From NCBI GenBank assembly GCA_903851445.1, contig CAINOH010000009.1:197784-261783 (forward strand): a stretch of 64,000 nucleotides of DNA, given 5' to 3'. The stretch is from an uncultured Microcaldota archaeon (lineage in GTDB: Archaea > Micrarchaeota > Micrarchaeia > Norongarragalinales > CAINOH01). Both the position numbers and the translations under genes were made by a program. Position 1 is the first letter of the stretch. Every line of letters begins with the position of its first letter. The notes beneath the pieces were generated by a model. The model did not search any database and was not told the DNA's origin. It worked only from the letters and a program-made list of their open reading frames with translations. This document shows positions 56,599 through 62,451 of this stretch, in pieces.

Positions 56599-57378
56599 TC
56601 AGGGAAATATTTCGTCCAGCTTTTCATAGTCCGCAGCAAAGGCGTGCATCCCGAGCTTCCTCGCAGGCGCAAGGTCGTGCGCTTCAGAGTCACCGACCAT
56701 CGCGCAGTCCGACGGCTTGACTTTGAGTTGCTTGCACGCAAGCGCGTAGTAGGACGAGTGCGGTTTCATCTTCTTGGTCTCGGAAGTAGTCACGATTACG
56801 TCAAAGAAGTCCATCAACCCGGCTGCCTCGAGCTTCTCAAGAGCCCACTCGTGTTCCTCACAGGTTATGACTGCGAGCTTGACGGAATACTTTTTCTGAA
56901 GTTTTTCGATGAACCTTCTTGCAGCAGGGTAGGGTACAATCTTGGAAAGCACCAGTTCGCGGAATTTTTTCTCGGCATCAACAGTGACTTGCGGTTTTAT
57001 TCGGAATTTTTTTGCAAGAAGCGCGTAGGAATAGCCCCTCGACCGCTTCTGGATGTCATCCTCACCTGAAAGCTTTTCAACAATGTTGTAGAACGCAAGA
57101 AGCACCTGCTTGTGGTCAGCACCCTCGTCCTCGAAGAGCCGCAGGGCTTCCGCGTCGCACTCCTTTGCAATGTCGCGGGTTGGGTAGAGCGTGTTGTCAG
57201 CGTCGAAAAGAACTGCTTTGATTTTGGATGCAACGAACGGGGCGGATTTGGTTTTGGAAGCGTCAAAAATGGCTGCTACTGCCGGCGGTTTTTGCTTTGG
57301 TGCTGCAGCTACTGCTGCTTTTCTTTTCTTTGCAGGAATGATTTTTTTCCTACTCAACTTTCTCCCCATCCTTAACAT
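56599..57378 (-). CDS. HAD-superfamily hydrolase with basic N-terminal extension
   Basis: A 259-aa protein whose HAD core begins at residue ~53: VLFDADNTLYPTRDIAKECD (motif I), VITCEEHEWALEKLEAAGLM (motif II Thr), a Lys in KKMKPHSSYYALACKQLKVK (motif III), and MVGDSEAHDLAPARKLGM (motif IV). The N-terminal 50 residues are Lys/Ala-rich (KKIIPAKKRKAAVAAAPKQK), similar in style to the tails of the two epimerases in this window. It overlaps the GlmU-like gene by 29 nt and is the last gene of the glm operon, so a sugar phosphate is a reasonable substrate guess. Confidence 0.8.
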   Translation of the reverse strand: MLRMGRKLSRKKIIPAKKRKAAVAAAPKQKPPAVAAIFDASKTKSAPFVASKIKAVLFDADNTLYPTRDIAKECDAEALRLFEDEGADHKQVLLAFYNIVEKLSGEDDIQKRSRGYSYALLAKKFRIKPQVTVDAEKKFRELVLSKIVPYPAARRFIEKLQKKYSVKLAVITCEEHEWALEKLEAAGLMDFFDVIVTTSETKKMKPHSSYYALACKQLKVKPSDCAMVGDSEAHDLAPARKLGMHAFAADYEKLDEIFP

Positions 57379-58573
57379 CGTTGTAAGCTACCTCGTTGGG
57401 CATCACGCCCGCACCCGCGCCCAGCTTTACCCCTGGCATGACGCTTGCGTTCACGCCAAGCCACGAGCCCTCGCCCATAACCGTTCCGAAAAAGTCCAGG
57501 CCGGTGTCCTTCTTCCCGTTCTTGGAGTCGCTTTTTACGTTTCCCTTGTCAAAGCGCCTGTTTGCGGTAACGGAAAATGCGGCAAGCCTGCAATTGCGGT
57601 CAATGATGGAATCCTCGACCGAGCAGTGGTGCAAGTGCGCTCCTTCAAGCACAAGCGAGTCCTTGACTTCGGTGCAGTAGCCAGCGACCGCCCGAGCTTC
57701 CAGGCAGGAGTAGTTTCGCACGAGCGCGCCGGTGCCGACAACCGCGCCTTCGCCAATGTACGCCGGGCCCTTGATTACTGCGTTCTCCATCACCTTCGCC
57801 CCCTTTGAGACGTAGGCGCGGCCGCTAATAACCGCGCTTTCATCAACTTCCGCACCAGGCGCGATTACGGGCCGGTCAGGAAGCGTGCGCTCCATTATGA
57901 AGTTCTTGAGCGCAAGGAGGTGCCAGGGATACTTCAGAGTAGGCTGGTAGCCTTCGACCTTGGCGCACAGTACCTTACCTTCCGTTACAAGCAAGGAGAG
58001 CGCGTTCTCAAAGGAGTAGTGGCCTGAATCAACAGCCGTAAGCGCGGAAATGAATTTTGCGGAAAGCAAATACGTGCTTACAATCCGAAAGCCCGCGTGC
58101 GGATCCTGTGGCTTTTCCTCAATCGAGGTTACTTTTGAGTCGGAGTCGAACTTTACCTCGCCGTATTCGGACACGTCGGGCACCTGCCGGCCGCAGACAG
58201 CAGCATCGCACTGGCCGAGGGTCTTGAGCGCGGAATAATTGTCGCCCGCATTCACCGCGTGGCCGCTTGCAACCACAAAAGAGCTAGGGAATTTGCCCGC
58301 AATCCTGAGTATCTCCGCACCCATTCCCTCCTGCGAGCTGGACTCGACGACCTCCGCCTTCACGCCTGGAACGGACAACGCTATCTTTTTTGCAAGGTCG
58401 CCGTCGCGGTCGGAGACCACTATGATTTGCTCGTTAATGCCGTTTGCCGCGAGGCTTTCCATCGTGTGCGCAAGCAGGGTTTTTCCGCAGACTTCGTATA
58501 ATGCCTTGTGCCTTGAACTTGCCAGTGGCCACATGCGCGAGCTTGCGCCAGCTGCGAGTATCACTGCCTTCAT
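57350..58573 (-). CDS. GlmU-like bifunctional sugar-1-phosphate nucleotidylyltransferase/acetyltransferase
   Basis: A 407-aa protein. The N-terminal domain is a nucleotidylyltransferase (AVILAAGASSRMWPLASSRHK with the phosphate-binding loop, SIEEKPQDPHAGF, DSGHYSFENALSLLV). The C-terminal part is a left-handed beta-helix with hexapeptide repeats (VIAPGAEVDESAVISGRAYV, NAVIKGPAYIGEGAVVGTGA, DFFGTVMGEGSWLGVNASVM). Enzymes of this type make UDP-GlcNAc from GlcN-1-P, acetyl-CoA and UTP. In the canonical loop (LAAGxGxRMxPLTxxxPK) the final Pro-Lys appears as His-Lys. ATG overlaps the stop of the upstream gene as ATGA. Confidence 0.88.
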   Translation of the reverse strand: MKAVILAAGASSRMWPLASSRHKALYEVCGKTLLAHTMESLAANGINEQIIVVSDRDGDLAKKIALSVPGVKAEVVESSSQEGMGAEILRIAGKFPSSFVVASGHAVNAGDNYSALKTLGQCDAAVCGRQVPDVSEYGEVKFDSDSKVTSIEEKPQDPHAGFRIVSTYLLSAKFISALTAVDSGHYSFENALSLLVTEGKVLCAKVEGYQPTLKYPWHLLALKNFIMERTLPDRPVIAPGAEVDESAVISGRAYVSKGAKVMENAVIKGPAYIGEGAVVGTGALVRNYSCLEARAVAGYCTEVKDSLVLEGAHLHHCSVEDSIIDRNCRLAAFSVTANRRFDKGNVKSDSKNGKKDTGLDFFGTVMGEGSWLGVNASVMPGVKLGAGAGVMPNEVAYNDVKDGEKVE

Positions 58574-59544
58574 TTTGGACCAACCAAGGAAATTACTGTT
58601 GTTGCGATTTTATTTGCGTCGTGCCGGGCCATTCCGTTGACGTTCGAAAGCAGGTCACAGGAGACGAAGCCGTAGCCTTCAAAATCCTCTTTTCTTGCCA
58701 CTACCTGCGACGCGCCCTCTTTTTCGTACTTCGCCTGCGTGTCACTTCCAAAAGCAGTTGAATTCGCCACCACGAAATCCATCTTGCATCCGGCGTACTT
58801 TTCGATTTCCATAATGAAGTCGCGGCCTGAAAACCCATCCGTCTCCCCGTGTTTTGTCGCAAGGGGAAGGATGAACACCTTGCGCGCATTGCTTGCGCAG
58901 ATTGCCTTTGCCATTCCTGACACCAACATGTTGGGAACGATGCTGGTGTAAAGGTCGCCGGGGCCGATGACAATCAGGTCGGAGTTTTGCACTGCAGCAA
59001 TCGCCTTGGCCGAAGCCCTTGCATCAGGCTGCAAAAAGACGCGCCTGATTTTCGGCCTCTTGCCATTCGGGATGTCGATGTTGGTCTCTCCTTCGATTAC
59101 TGTCCCGTCGGCAAGCTCGGCGCACAACTCGGCCTTGTCAAGGGTGACCGGGATGACTCTGCCCGTAATGTCAAGCATCTTTCCCGCTTCGTCGATAGCC
59201 TTCTCGAAATCGCCCGTGGTTTTTTCAAGTGCAGTTAGGAAGAGGTTTCCGAAGTTGTGGCCCGAAAGCGAGGAGCCGTTCTCGAAACGGTAGTTGAAAA
59301 GGTCAAGCATGAGCTTTGGCGAGTTGGAGAGCGCAACAAGGCACTGCCGCACGTCGCCTGGCGGGAGCACCCCGAGCTCGGTCCTGAGCCTGCCCGAGCT
59401 TCCGCCGGAGTCGGTCATGGTGACGATTGCGTTGATTTCTACTGGCATCCTCTTTAGGCCCTCAAGGAGGGTGAAGCGGCCGCTGCCGCCGCCAATGACC
59501 GTGATGACTGGCCTCTTTTCCCATTTCGTATTTTTTTCCGCCAT
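58570..59544 (-). CDS. GlmR/YvcK-family protein (CofD-like fold, UDP-sugar binding)
   Basis: A 324-aa protein of the YvcK/GlmR group. The nucleotide site is VIGGGSGRFTLLEGLKRMPV, the signature is MTDSGGSSGRLRTELGVLPPG followed by DVRQCLVALSN, then GHNFGNLFLTALEKTTGDFE and VIGPGDLYTSIVPNMLVSGM. In Bacillus GlmR binds UDP-GlcNAc and controls GlmS; CofD itself is a phospholactate transferase for F420 but lacks the GGSSGRLR-LPPGD pattern. Its place between glmS and the GlmU-like gene, with 4-nt overlap downstream, supports a role in UDP-GlcNAc control. The alternative GTG start at 59556 would overlap glmS by 4 nt (GTGA). Confidence 0.88.
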   Translation of the reverse strand: MAEKNTKWEKRPVITVIGGGSGRFTLLEGLKRMPVEINAIVTMTDSGGSSGRLRTELGVLPPGDVRQCLVALSNSPKLMLDLFNYRFENGSSLSGHNFGNLFLTALEKTTGDFEKAIDEAGKMLDITGRVIPVTLDKAELCAELADGTVIEGETNIDIPNGKRPKIRRVFLQPDARASAKAIAAVQNSDLIVIGPGDLYTSIVPNMLVSGMAKAICASNARKVFILPLATKHGETDGFSGRDFIMEIEKYAGCKMDFVVANSTAFGSDTQAKYEKEGASQVVARKEDFEGYGFVSCDLLSNVNGMARHDANKIATTVISLVGPK

Positions 59545-59552
59545 GTGGATGC

Positions 59553-61331
59553 TCACTTCACTGTCACTGACTTTGCGAGGTTGCGCGGCCTGTCGGGATT
59601 GTTCTTCCGCAGTACGGCCGTGTGGTATGCGAGGAACTGCAGCGGGATTGAAAACACGAGCGGAAAGTGGTGCTCCTCGACTTTGGGAACCGCGATAAGC
59701 TCGTCAAAGGCGCTGTTGGGCTCGTCCGAGCATCCGATTACGAACGCCCCGCGTGCAGCAGTCTCCATAACGTTTGAAATCGTTTCCGCGTGCGTGTAGT
59801 CGTTCGGGCAGATTGCAATCACCGGCGTGCCCTTGGAGATGAGCGCTAGGGTGCCGTGCTTGAGCTCGCCCGCCGCCATGCCCTCGGCGTGGATGTAGGT
59901 GATTTCCTTGAACTTGAGCGCGCCCTCAAGCGCAGTCGGGAAGTTCGGGCCGCGCGCGATGAAGTATGCTGCGGGTTCCTTTGCAAGCCTTTGTGAGAGT
60001 TTTCTGCCAACCGCATCCCATCCGGGAAGCGAATTTTCCAAAATCCGCGATACCTCGTCAAGCTTCCTCTTCTCATCATCCTTCTTTCCGACAACCGTAG
60101 AGGCGAGAAGGTAAAGCAGTGAAAGTTGCGCCACGAATGTCTTGGTTGCGGCAACGCCGATTTCGGGCCCGCAGTTCAGGTGGAGTGCGCAATCCGAGAT
60201 GCGGTCAAGGCTTGAGCCCACCACGTTCGTTATCGCAAGGACCTTTGCGCCGCGCGCCTTGGCAATCTTGACGCCCTCGATGACGTCGGCAGTCTCCCCG
60301 CTTTGTGAGACCGCAATCACCAACAGGTCGTCGTCAACTATGTTCTTTGCAATGTAGGGGAACTCGCTTGCGACAACCACTTCGCAGAACTTCCCGCCGA
60401 TGCGGTTGAACAAATAGCGTCCTACAAGCGAGGCGTGGCGCGAGGTGCCGCACGCCACGAAGACGACGCGGTTCTCACGCACAAGTCGGGCCGCCTTCTC
60501 AAGTGCAGCAGGTTCCTGCATCGCAGCGAGCCGAATGGCAGCCGGCGCCTCGTAGATTTCCTTGAGCATAAAGTGCGGGTATTCCTGCTTGTCGGAGAAC
60601 ACGCTGCCGGTTCCAAATACAATAGGCTTCCGGCCAACCTTTTTTCCAGTTCGCAGGTCGAGCACCTCGAGTGAACCTTTCTTTATGATTGCAAAATCGC
60701 CGTCCTCCAGGAACAAGCCCTCTTTCGAGCATTTCGCAAGCGGGACGGGGTCGCTTGCAGCAGCTGCAAAACCGTCGCCTGCCGAAAGCACAAGTGGGGA
60801 CTGGTTCTTTGCGGCAACAAGCGCGTCAGGCGAGCCTTCGTATGCCGCAAGAATTGCGTAGCTTCCCTCAAGACGCCGGAAAGCAGCCAGGGCCGCATCA
60901 ACAAAGCCCATCGTGCGCAGGTTCTCTTCAATCAGGTGGCCGATGACCTCGCTGTCGGTCTCTGAGGAGAAGTTGTGGCCGCGTGAAGTAAGTTCTGAGC
61001 GCAATGCCTGGAAGTTTTCGATGATTCCGTTGTGCACTACTGCAACTTTTCCCGTGCAGTCCGTGTGCGGGTGCGCGTTTGCGTCGGAGACCCCGCCGTG
61101 GGTTGCCCAGCGCGTGTGCGCTATGGCAAAATTGGACGCGGACATATCCTCTGCTGCGAGCTTTTTGTCAAGGGCTGACACGTCGCCAACGGTCTTTACG
61201 ACCTTGATCCTACCTTCCTTTGTGGCGAAGGCAATGCCTGCGGAGTCGTAGCCGCGGTACTCAAGAGTGCGAAGGCCTTCCAGGGCGTTCGCTGCGGCGT
61301 TGTTTCCGATGAATCCGGTAATTCCACACAT
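59553..61331 (-). CDS. glmS: Glutamine-fructose-6-phosphate aminotransferase
   Basis: First step of the UDP-GlcNAc pathway: fructose-6-phosphate plus glutamine to glucosamine-6-phosphate. The 592-aa protein begins MCGITGFIG with the N-terminal nucleophile Cys exposed after Met removal. The Ntn glutaminase domain has LEYRGYDSAGIAF and HTRWATHGGVSD; two SIS domains follow (VACGTSRHASLVGRYLFN, AVSQSGETADVIEGVKIAKA; and the second with FIARGPNFPTALEGALKFKE). The C-terminus RPRNLAKSVTVK matches the family end. The ATG at 61331 is fixed by the Cys; the track start is too long. A TATA box lies 42-49 nt upstream. Confidence 0.97.
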   Translation of the reverse strand: MCGITGFIGNNAAANALEGLRTLEYRGYDSAGIAFATKEGRIKVVKTVGDVSALDKKLAAEDMSASNFAIAHTRWATHGGVSDANAHPHTDCTGKVAVVHNGIIENFQALRSELTSRGHNFSSETDSEVIGHLIEENLRTMGFVDAALAAFRRLEGSYAILAAYEGSPDALVAAKNQSPLVLSAGDGFAAAASDPVPLAKCSKEGLFLEDGDFAIIKKGSLEVLDLRTGKKVGRKPIVFGTGSVFSDKQEYPHFMLKEIYEAPAAIRLAAMQEPAALEKAARLVRENRVVFVACGTSRHASLVGRYLFNRIGGKFCEVVVASEFPYIAKNIVDDDLLVIAVSQSGETADVIEGVKIAKARGAKVLAITNVVGSSLDRISDCALHLNCGPEIGVAATKTFVAQLSLLYLLASTVVGKKDDEKRKLDEVSRILENSLPGWDAVGRKLSQRLAKEPAAYFIARGPNFPTALEGALKFKEITYIHAEGMAAGELKHGTLALISKGTPVIAICPNDYTHAETISNVMETAARGAFVIGCSDEPNSAFDELIAVPKVEEHHFPLVFSIPLQFLAYHTAVLRKNNPDRPRNLAKSVTVK

Positions 61332-61372
61332 AGGCATTCGCCAGACGGAAAGAACATTTTGCACAAGGCGGT

Positions 61373-61380
61373 TTATATAT
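61373..61380 (-). promoter_or_regulatory. TATA box of the glm operon
   Basis: Minus strand ATATATAA (plus GTTTATATATT) predicts a start near 61348 and a leader of about 17 nt before glmS. Confidence 0.6.
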
Positions 61381-61447
61381 TCCGCTGAGGCAAAAACGAT
61401 AATTTGGTTCGTTTTTTTGATAAAAACTTAATAAAACTATAGAACAG

Positions 61448-61518: not shown

Positions 61519-62451
61519 ATGGCATCCATACGACAGCCGGTTCCTTCCGAGCAGGCCATGCTTTTCGTAAACGAGGAGGGCTACTCGTCAAAGCTTGCGG
61601 ACTTTGCGCAGGTGTCCGGCCTCTCAAAGGACCGTCTTGAGATACTGCGCCTGCTTGCGGCCGAGTCGATGTACCCGGCTGAGATTGCCCGCGAGCTCAA
61701 GCTCCCGGAGCAGACGGTCTATTACCATATGCGCAGTCTCTTGTCTGCGCAGCTTGTCGAGATAAGCTCGGAGGAACAGAAGCAGGGTGGCACCGCAAAA
61801 AGGTATTCTTTCCCTGCAGACTCGCTTTCGGTTCTGCTTTCCGAGCGCAAGGCAAAGAGCCCGCGCATATCGCGGCAAAAAAAGATTCCTGGCTTTCTTG
61901 AGTCGTTCGTAAGGAACGGCGTGTTCGACGCTAAAATGGTGGTGGGCTCCCCAGACCCGCACGGACCCTACCGCTCGCGCGGCTCGGAATTCTGCGCAAC
62001 CGAGGTCGCAATGTACCTTGGCGGGTTCTGCTCGTTCGAATACCCGCTCTATTACCTTGACACCGAGCTTACCGAGCAGCAGCGCAGGCACAATCTGGTT
62101 GCGCTCGGCGGGCCGAAAGTGAACACGCTTGTAAACGACGCGAACGCCTCGCTTCCCATCCGCTTTGACAAGTCGAACTTCTCAATCTATTCCTCCCTGT
62201 CCAAGAAGAAATACACGGAGGACGTCGGCATAGTCGAGCTTGTGCAGAACCCTTTCAACCCGAAGTCCAGGCTCCTGGTCATTGCGGGAAGCAGCCACCA
62301 CGGAACGCGCATCGGCGTGCTTGGCCTGTTGCGCCACCAGCGCGAGTTCGAGTTGGGGAACGCCTTTGACTCCTCGGTGATGGCCAAGGTGATAGCCGGG
62401 TTCGACGAGGACTCCGACGGGATAGTGGACACTGTCGAGATACTGGAATAA
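61519..62451 (+). CDS. Winged-helix regulator with S-layer-like GGPxVN domain
   Basis: A 310-aa protein with an N-terminal ArsR/TrmB-like winged helix (KDRLEILRLLAAESMYPAEI, LKLPEQTVYYHMRSLLSAQL, residues ~35-95). The C-terminal domain includes LVALGGPKVNTLVNDANASL followed by PFNPKSRLLVIAGSSHHGTR, a pattern seen in the outer domain of archaeal S-layer proteins and in a set of archaeal regulators. The ligand is unknown. It is divergent from the glm operon across 187 nt, so it is a reasonable candidate regulator of cell-surface sugar genes. No membrane helix. Confidence 0.75.
   Translation: MASIRQPVPSEQAMLFVNEEGYSSKLADFAQVSGLSKDRLEILRLLAAESMYPAEIARELKLPEQTVYYHMRSLLSAQLVEISSEEQKQGGTAKRYSFPADSLSVLLSERKAKSPRISRQKKIPGFLESFVRNGVFDAKMVVGSPDPHGPYRSRGSEFCATEVAMYLGGFCSFEYPLYYLDTELTEQQRRHNLVALGGPKVNTLVNDANASLPIRFDKSNFSIYSSLSKKKYTEDVGIVELVQNPFNPKSRLLVIAGSSHHGTRIGVLGLLRHQREFELGNAFDSSVMAKVIAGFDEDSDGIVDTVEILE

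Follow-up and report, generated by a model that had tools for sequence, protein, structure and literature searches.

Is GlmR, when its gene lies between glmS and glmU in an archaeon, a regulator of GlmS or an enzyme of UDP-N-acetylglucosamine (UDP-GlcNAc) synthesis? This question is raised by a 64,000-nucleotide stretch of DNA, hereafter the window (contig CAINOH010000009.1 of assembly GCA_903851445.1), from an uncultured archaeon of the order Norongarragalinales, in which glmS, glmR, an archaeal-type glmU and a gene for a HAD hydrolase form a single tight unit on the minus strand. We propose, with a probability of roughly 45%, that this unit is a UDP-GlcNAc operon in which GlmR would act as the main uridyltransferase beside a GlmU-like protein with an altered N-terminal domain. 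The proposal is based on the activity of bacterial GlmR, on the absence of metal-site residues from the linked GlmU, and on the recurrent linkage of glmR and glmU. Open reading frames and family scores bore out the four genes, the order, the strand and the tight spacing that an earlier note on this DNA had described.

61331-59553, minus strand: glmS, first gene of the unit, 592 amino acids (aa), TIGR01135, isomerizing glutamine:fructose-6-phosphate amidotransferase of native archaeal type
59544-58570, minus strand: glmR (YvcK, TIGR01826), 324 aa, Patescibacteria-like, alternative start GTG at 59556
58573-57350, minus strand: glmU-like bifunctional gene (ST0452 fold), 407 aa, TIGR03992, Patescibacteria clade
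57378-56599, minus strand: HAD-superfamily hydrolase, 259 aa, start codon uncertain, Pfam PF00702/PF13419 (Hydrolase/HAD_2)

The glmS and glmR genes are spaced by 8 nucleotides, or overlap by 4 if glmR starts at GTG 59556, and glmR and glmU overlap by 4 nucleotides. The overlap of glmU with the HAD gene is 29 nucleotides when the first HAD ATG is used, a value that depends on the start codon.

GlmR belongs to the YvcK family

To the question whether the second gene product is GlmR or CofD, the family scores gave a clear answer. It scored 329 bits against TIGR01826 (cut-off, 196 bits), which makes it a YvcK-family member, as the earlier note had supposed, and its assignment as the F420-type 2-phospho-L-lactate transferase CofD was rejected at 26.7 bits against TIGR01819 (cut-off, 257 bits). 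The closest solved structure is that of Bacillus halodurans BH3568. A family search found it as the sole CofD-superfamily protein of its genome; the same searches left the Bacillus subtilis control genome, a known carrier of yvcJ and yvcK, unmatched for both CofD/YvcK and RapZ, so that absences in them are not proof.

Alignments were then read at the functional residues. D45 corresponds to D38 of B. subtilis, the first catalytic Asp, and is kept, whereas S46 occupies the position of the second one (D39, B. subtilis numbering). Staphylococcus aureus GlmR carries Asn at this position and is active (PMC10128056). N205 corresponds to N198 of Listeria, and the UDP-GlcNAc site, on which the earlier note had made its idea of control depend, has its counterparts in Y273 and R307, equivalent to the B. 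subtilis UDP-GlcNAc-binding residues Y265 and R301. GlmR proteins of Listeria, S. aureus and B. subtilis produce UDP-GlcNAc from GlcNAc-1-phosphate and UTP in vitro, and bacterial GlmR has no acetyltransferase activity (PMC10128056). In living B. subtilis cells, this uridyltransferase activity is of importance (PMC13046274).

GlmR was detected in 2 of the 295 genomes of the phylum, in agreement between family search and protein search, namely in this genome and in one other of the same order (G239), and it was present in 162 of 333 Patescibacteria genomes. Its best relative in the GTDB genomes, at 52% identity, belongs to a patescibacterium (L004), in which glmR directly follows glmS. The occurrence of GlmR in "some archaea" has been mentioned previously (PMC13046274).

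The second GlmR of the order, that of G239 (L161, contig C75), has no glm gene nearby, and in that genome the single full GlmU-type match (L043) is truncated by a contig end. A common origin of the two GlmR genes is unsupported, as the G239 copy is unlinked and takes a separate place in a weakly supported tree; it was probably acquired independently.

The linked GlmU-like protein lacks metal-site residues

The GlmU-like protein scored 244.8 bits against TIGR03992, the archaeal GlmU family, below the cut-off of 292.1 bits. Its AlphaFold2 model had a predicted local distance difference test score (pLDDT) of 93.6 and matched ST0452 of Sulfurisphaera tokodaii best, with a template-modelling (TM) score of 0.86-0.87. 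Three parts of the gene were distinguished:

57899..58573, minus strand: N-terminal nucleotidyltransferase domain, residues 1-225, with an altered metal site
58259..58264, minus strand: codons of G104-H105 at the metal-binding Asp position, located by alignments; strand 98-103 of the model ends here
57353..57880, minus strand: C-terminal left-handed beta-helix acetyltransferase domain, residues 232-407, with H315 and N338 kept

In ST0452 and all compared GlmU proteins of the order, the metal-binding Asp comes directly after a strand that ends near residue 103, as part of NGD, NAD or YGD, and this first Asp is present in every archaeal GlmU row compared. The window protein has S103-G104-H105 at the same loop, so that NGD/YGD is changed to SGH at the position equivalent to D105 of Escherichia coli GlmU. 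In the model the next Asp, D111, is already inside the following helix. The second metal-ligand motif, DIGKPW, reads TLKYPW (T212-L213-K214), in which the acidic ligand is gone, and S78 stands where nearly all compared rows retain the UTP-site Gln. GlmU of Haemophilus influenzae is stated to require K25, Q76 and D105 (PMC10128056); of these, the window protein has a counterpart for the Lys only. The acetyltransferase residues H315 and N338 are invariant in alignment A1 and in all rows that have lost the Asp. We infer from these residues that the N domain may be inactive or weak and that GlmR may carry the uridyltransferase step. In favor of this, a search of the genome, which is 81% complete, yielded no other full-length GlmU.

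As a separate observation, most Patescibacteria GlmU proteins in L082-L103 and L134-L160 bear a Lys motif (LKYPW or similar) in place of DIGxPW, those of GlmR-less genomes included.

glmR and glmU are recurrently linked in Patescibacteria

In the gene neighbourhoods compared, glmR adjoins glmU in the Patescibacteria genomes G305, G584, G591, G633, G340, G539 and G512, of which G591 has the order glmR-glmU-HAD, and another patescibacterium, G353, has glmS-glmR-glmU, matching the order in the window. In a tree of 56 GlmU proteins the window protein fell inside an 11-member clade whose other members are all from Patescibacteria (support 99/97), and there it grouped with L081 (98/95). Nearly all genomes of the archaeal order have an archaeal-type GlmU, only 23-33% identical to that of the window, and forcing the window protein into the main group of the order was rejected by the approximately unbiased (AU) test (p=1.8e-7). 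The result was borderline when it was forced together with two odd members of the order, L022 and L023 (p=0.047).

The first metal Asp was lost in 10 GlmU rows, those of the window and of nine Patescibacteria of the same clade, the loop carrying a His, a Lys or an Arg. GlmR was present in all 10 genomes with such a GlmU, compared with 15 of the 49 Patescibacteria whose GlmU keeps the Asp (Fisher p=5e-5 for Patescibacteria plus the window, with counts that ignore kinship). Given that essentially one clade and two state changes are involved, this association has no independent replicates. The count was dropped as independent evidence after tree correction and kept as clade-level support only.

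The wider claim would be that GlmR is the sole or principal UDP-GlcNAc uridyltransferase in this Patescibacteria lineage and in the archaeon, which received the glmR-glmU pair by horizontal transfer, and that GlmU has turned into an acetyltransferase whose nucleotidyltransferase-like domain is regulatory. We regard this claim as possible yet doubtful. A replacement of GlmU by GlmR in Patescibacteria or archaea was searched for in the open-access literature, and no report was found.

A Patescibacteria-type gene pair appears to stand beside a native glmS

The earlier note had asked whether the trio was acquired together, and the trees and AU tests spoke against it, GlmU being of Patescibacteria type and GlmS not. 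GlmS scored 661 bits against TIGR01135 (cut-off, 418 bits), and its N terminus, MCGITG, places the Cys nucleophile after the Met. In the tree it was found with the GlmS proteins of the order, and five Patescibacteria proteins stood separately on a 100/100 branch; a clade uniting it with those five was marginally rejected (AU test, p=0.044), and its placing inside the order was weakly supported. By this placement, GlmS is native to the archaeal order.

The neighbourhoods in related genomes were consistent with this. Six relatives within the order (L025, L026, L027, L034, L037 and L041) share the recurrent order glmS-HAD-glmU-glmM, and in six others (L033, L035, L036 and L038-L040) glmS directly precedes glmU. 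The window has glmS-glmR-glmU-HAD, and a gene for a GlmM-like mutase (L057) lies elsewhere on the contig. Because the relatives carry glmS-HAD-glmU-glmM, these comparisons strongly suggest, as the simplest history, that glmR arrived together with glmU from Patescibacteria and that the pair took the place of the native glmU next to the native glmS. A donor arrangement of this kind exists in G353 (glmS-glmR-glmU) and in G591 (glmR-glmU-HAD).

Bacterial DNA binned or assembled with an archaeon would also account for a glmR nearly absent from the phylum and a Patescibacteria-type glmU. We consider such an artefact very improbable, since the touching or overlapping genes form one unit with the native glmS, the contig is 452 kb long and encodes Orc1/Cdc6 within a few kb of the unit, and the G+C contents overall and at third codon positions (0.55 and 0.67 for glmR; 0.57 and 0.68 for glmU) match those of glmS and the neighbouring genes. 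The estimated contamination of the genome is 0.88%. The window also encodes a YchF-related GTPase that belongs to the archaeal subfamily, which together with Orc1/Cdc6 and a helix-turn-helix protein with an S-layer-like outer domain indicates an archaeal setting.

Upstream of glmS, one candidate promoter was read by eye from the sequence:

61371..61381, minus strand: TATA-box-like AATATATAAAC, a candidate promoter for the unit, about 40 nucleotides before the start codon (ATG) of glmS

An Rfam scan and bacterial promoter and terminator scans of the operon region gave nothing useful. A gene divergent from glmS (61519-62451, plus strand) encodes a protein with an ArsR-like helix-turn-helix domain and, after it, a region that matches the S-layer outer domain family PF05124; this protein could be a regulator of the operon.

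Evidence against GlmR as the main uridyltransferase

Several observations weigh against the proposed role of GlmR. The GlmR tree gave the window protein no supported position, the association of Asp loss with GlmR, at two state changes on the tree, has no power after correction, and one member of the clade (L014) keeps an Asp in GlmU with glmR adjoining. In GlmR itself, S46 stands in place of the second catalytic Asp of the Listeria and B. subtilis enzymes, a position at which the active S. aureus enzyme has Asn. The genome is only 81% complete. Furthermore, G9, R13, K23, G83, E153 and W217 of the N domain are invariant across the Asp-lost rows. A relaxed constraint on this domain was sought and not found, the identity ratio of N to C domain being 0.86 in Asp-lost GlmU and 0.87 in Asp-keeping archaeal GlmU. 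K214 is invariant in the Asp-lost clade and present in 41 of the 48 other Patescibacteria rows. Lysine is able to replace a metal in related pyrophosphorylases, and K214 could take over a metal's role in the same manner; the constraint on the N domain and K214 together would leave room for altered catalysis or for regulatory nucleotide binding.

In Firmicutes, GlmR is described as an accessory enzyme or regulator, and GlmU is the main uridyltransferase. The window GlmU might likewise still be an active nucleotidyltransferase through altered chemistry, for example with Lys214 for the metal, leaving GlmR an accessory enzyme. The ordinary constraint and the clade-wide Lys are consistent with this. 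So is the absence of GlmR from 34 of the 49 Patescibacteria whose GlmU keeps the Asp; most of these have a K-type second site, and they presumably still need UDP-GlcNAc. Nevertheless, the window protein has lost both the first Asp that every archaeal row has and the UTP-site Gln of nearly all rows, and only one of the three residues stated as required in H. influenzae is matched, which makes this explanation rather unlikely.

Other nucleotidyltransferases of the genome, namely GalU (L053) and the proteins at L051 and L052, also count against GlmR as the main enzyme. One of them might make UDP-GlcNAc; the GlmU N domain would then be a relic of structural or regulatory use, and GlmR would have another role. 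GalU exceeds its NCBIfam cut-off (350 versus 327), and more sugar nucleotidyltransferases, unassigned ones, are present. These genes, however, are unlinked to the operon, the GalU gene adjoins a UDP-glucose-dehydrogenase-like gene, and the glmR-glmU linkage recurs across Patescibacteria, so that we give this explanation little credence.

Two loci of this genome deserve separate mention. The protein at L052:1360-2217 (contig C23; 285 aa) has about 45 residues that look ribbon-helix-helix-like by eye, followed by a PF00483 nucleotidyltransferase, the only part that Pfam recognizes. At L056 (contig C24), two nucleotidyltransferase-like proteins and an adjoining HAD protein were found, possibly a second sugar-nucleotide cluster.

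GlmR as a sensor acting on GlmS

The earlier note had taken the gene trio to suggest that the Bacillus control circuit is not only bacterial. The genes are indeed present in an archaeon, but the glmR-glmU pair looks like an import from Patescibacteria, and its GlmR is one of two found in 295 genomes of the phylum. According to the B. subtilis model, GlmR would mainly sense UDP-GlcNAc and stimulate GlmS whenever the level of this product falls, with GlmU performing both final steps. B. subtilis GlmR does stimulate GlmS in vitro (PMC7525490), the UDP-GlcNAc-binding residues are matched, and glmS-glmR adjacency occurs in the window and also in the Patescibacteria L004, L117/L163 and L131. A GlmS-control model is thus possible for the window from gene order and conserved binding residues.

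Five points render it unlikely. With a GlmS that is native by its placement and an imported GlmR, one would not expect the two to share a co-evolved interface; most of the Patescibacteria glmR genes examined have no glmS alongside; a study of Listeria did not reproduce the interaction between GlmR and GlmS (PMC10128056); the window GlmU, which would perform both steps, has no metal-site residues; and the partner YvcJ/RapZ (PF03668) was not found in the genome, which is incomplete, in a search that left the B. subtilis control unmatched as well.

Proposed pathway and the HAD hydrolase

With GlmR as the main uridyltransferase, the pathway would proceed as follows. GlmS would produce glucosamine-6-phosphate, which the GlmM-like phosphohexomutase encoded elsewhere on the contig would convert to glucosamine-1-phosphate, and the acetyltransferase half of the GlmU-like protein would form GlcNAc-1-phosphate. 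GlmR, rather than the altered nucleotidyltransferase half of GlmU, would be the main enzyme joining GlcNAc-1-phosphate to UTP, and UDP-GlcNAc bound at the sensor site of GlmR may exert feedback control. An Epimerase_2 family protein is encoded in the genome; UDP-GlcNAc may be used by this protein and, as we infer, by surface glycans.

The fourth gene is assigned, from its motifs and scores, at the level of the HAD superfamily only. The DxD motif (D59/D61), K205 and GDSEAHD are present, and the score against TIGR02253 (HAD-IA) was 116 bits, with a cut-off of 170; no specific HAD equivalog cut-off was reached. ATG 57378, ATG 57369 and TTG 57360 are possible starts, the HAD domain beginning only at residue ~52. 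The earlier note had suggested a sugar phosphatase of the same pathway. Placement in the pathway is favored by the HAD gene between glmS and glmU in several relatives of the order, where it is an unassigned companion of the hexosamine genes; the scores stop short of a specific family. Its origin is undecided, because the best HAD proteins of the order (5e-17 to 8e-17) and that of G591 (1.4e-14, 28% identity) are about equally distant.

Taken together, the sequences describe a real, somewhat unusual operon of known parts, apparently rebuilt in part by horizontal transfer between domains, which set a gene pair of Patescibacteria type next to the native glmS of the archaeon, and with a takeover of the last UDP-GlcNAc step by GlmR as a possibility. 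If true, a lineage whose linked GlmU has no metal site would be a natural case in which GlmR must act as the uridyltransferase. Whether GlmR is an enzyme or a regulator of GlmS, which is disputed, could then be tested directly in vitro with three small proteins.

Comparison with known systems

The window GlmR resembles the GlmR/YvcK proteins of B. subtilis and Listeria monocytogenes in family score and in the equivalents of D38, Listeria N198, Y265 and R301. It differs from both in the Ser at the second catalytic Asp and in its archaeal host, and from the B. subtilis system in being encoded in a glmS-glmR-glmU unit instead of the yvcJ-glmR-yvcL operon, with no yvcJ/rapZ found.

The GlmU-like protein shares with S. 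tokodaii ST0452 (PDB 2ggo, 5z09 and 5z0a; TIGR03992) the two-domain fold and the acetyltransferase His and Asn, and departs from it in the subthreshold family score and in the absence of the metal Asp, the second ligand and the UTP-site Gln. The glmS-HAD-glmU-glmM units of the order likewise combine glmS, a HAD gene and a GlmU-type gene; they contain glmM, no glmR, and a native glmU with an intact or Glu-substituted metal site.

Closest in gene order are the Patescibacteria units glmS-glmR-glmU (G353, L163) and glmR-glmU-HAD (G591, L079), which also share the Asp-less GlmU clade. These differ from the window unit in their bacterial host, in the Patescibacteria-type GlmS of G353, and in a HAD protein that is only 28% identical.

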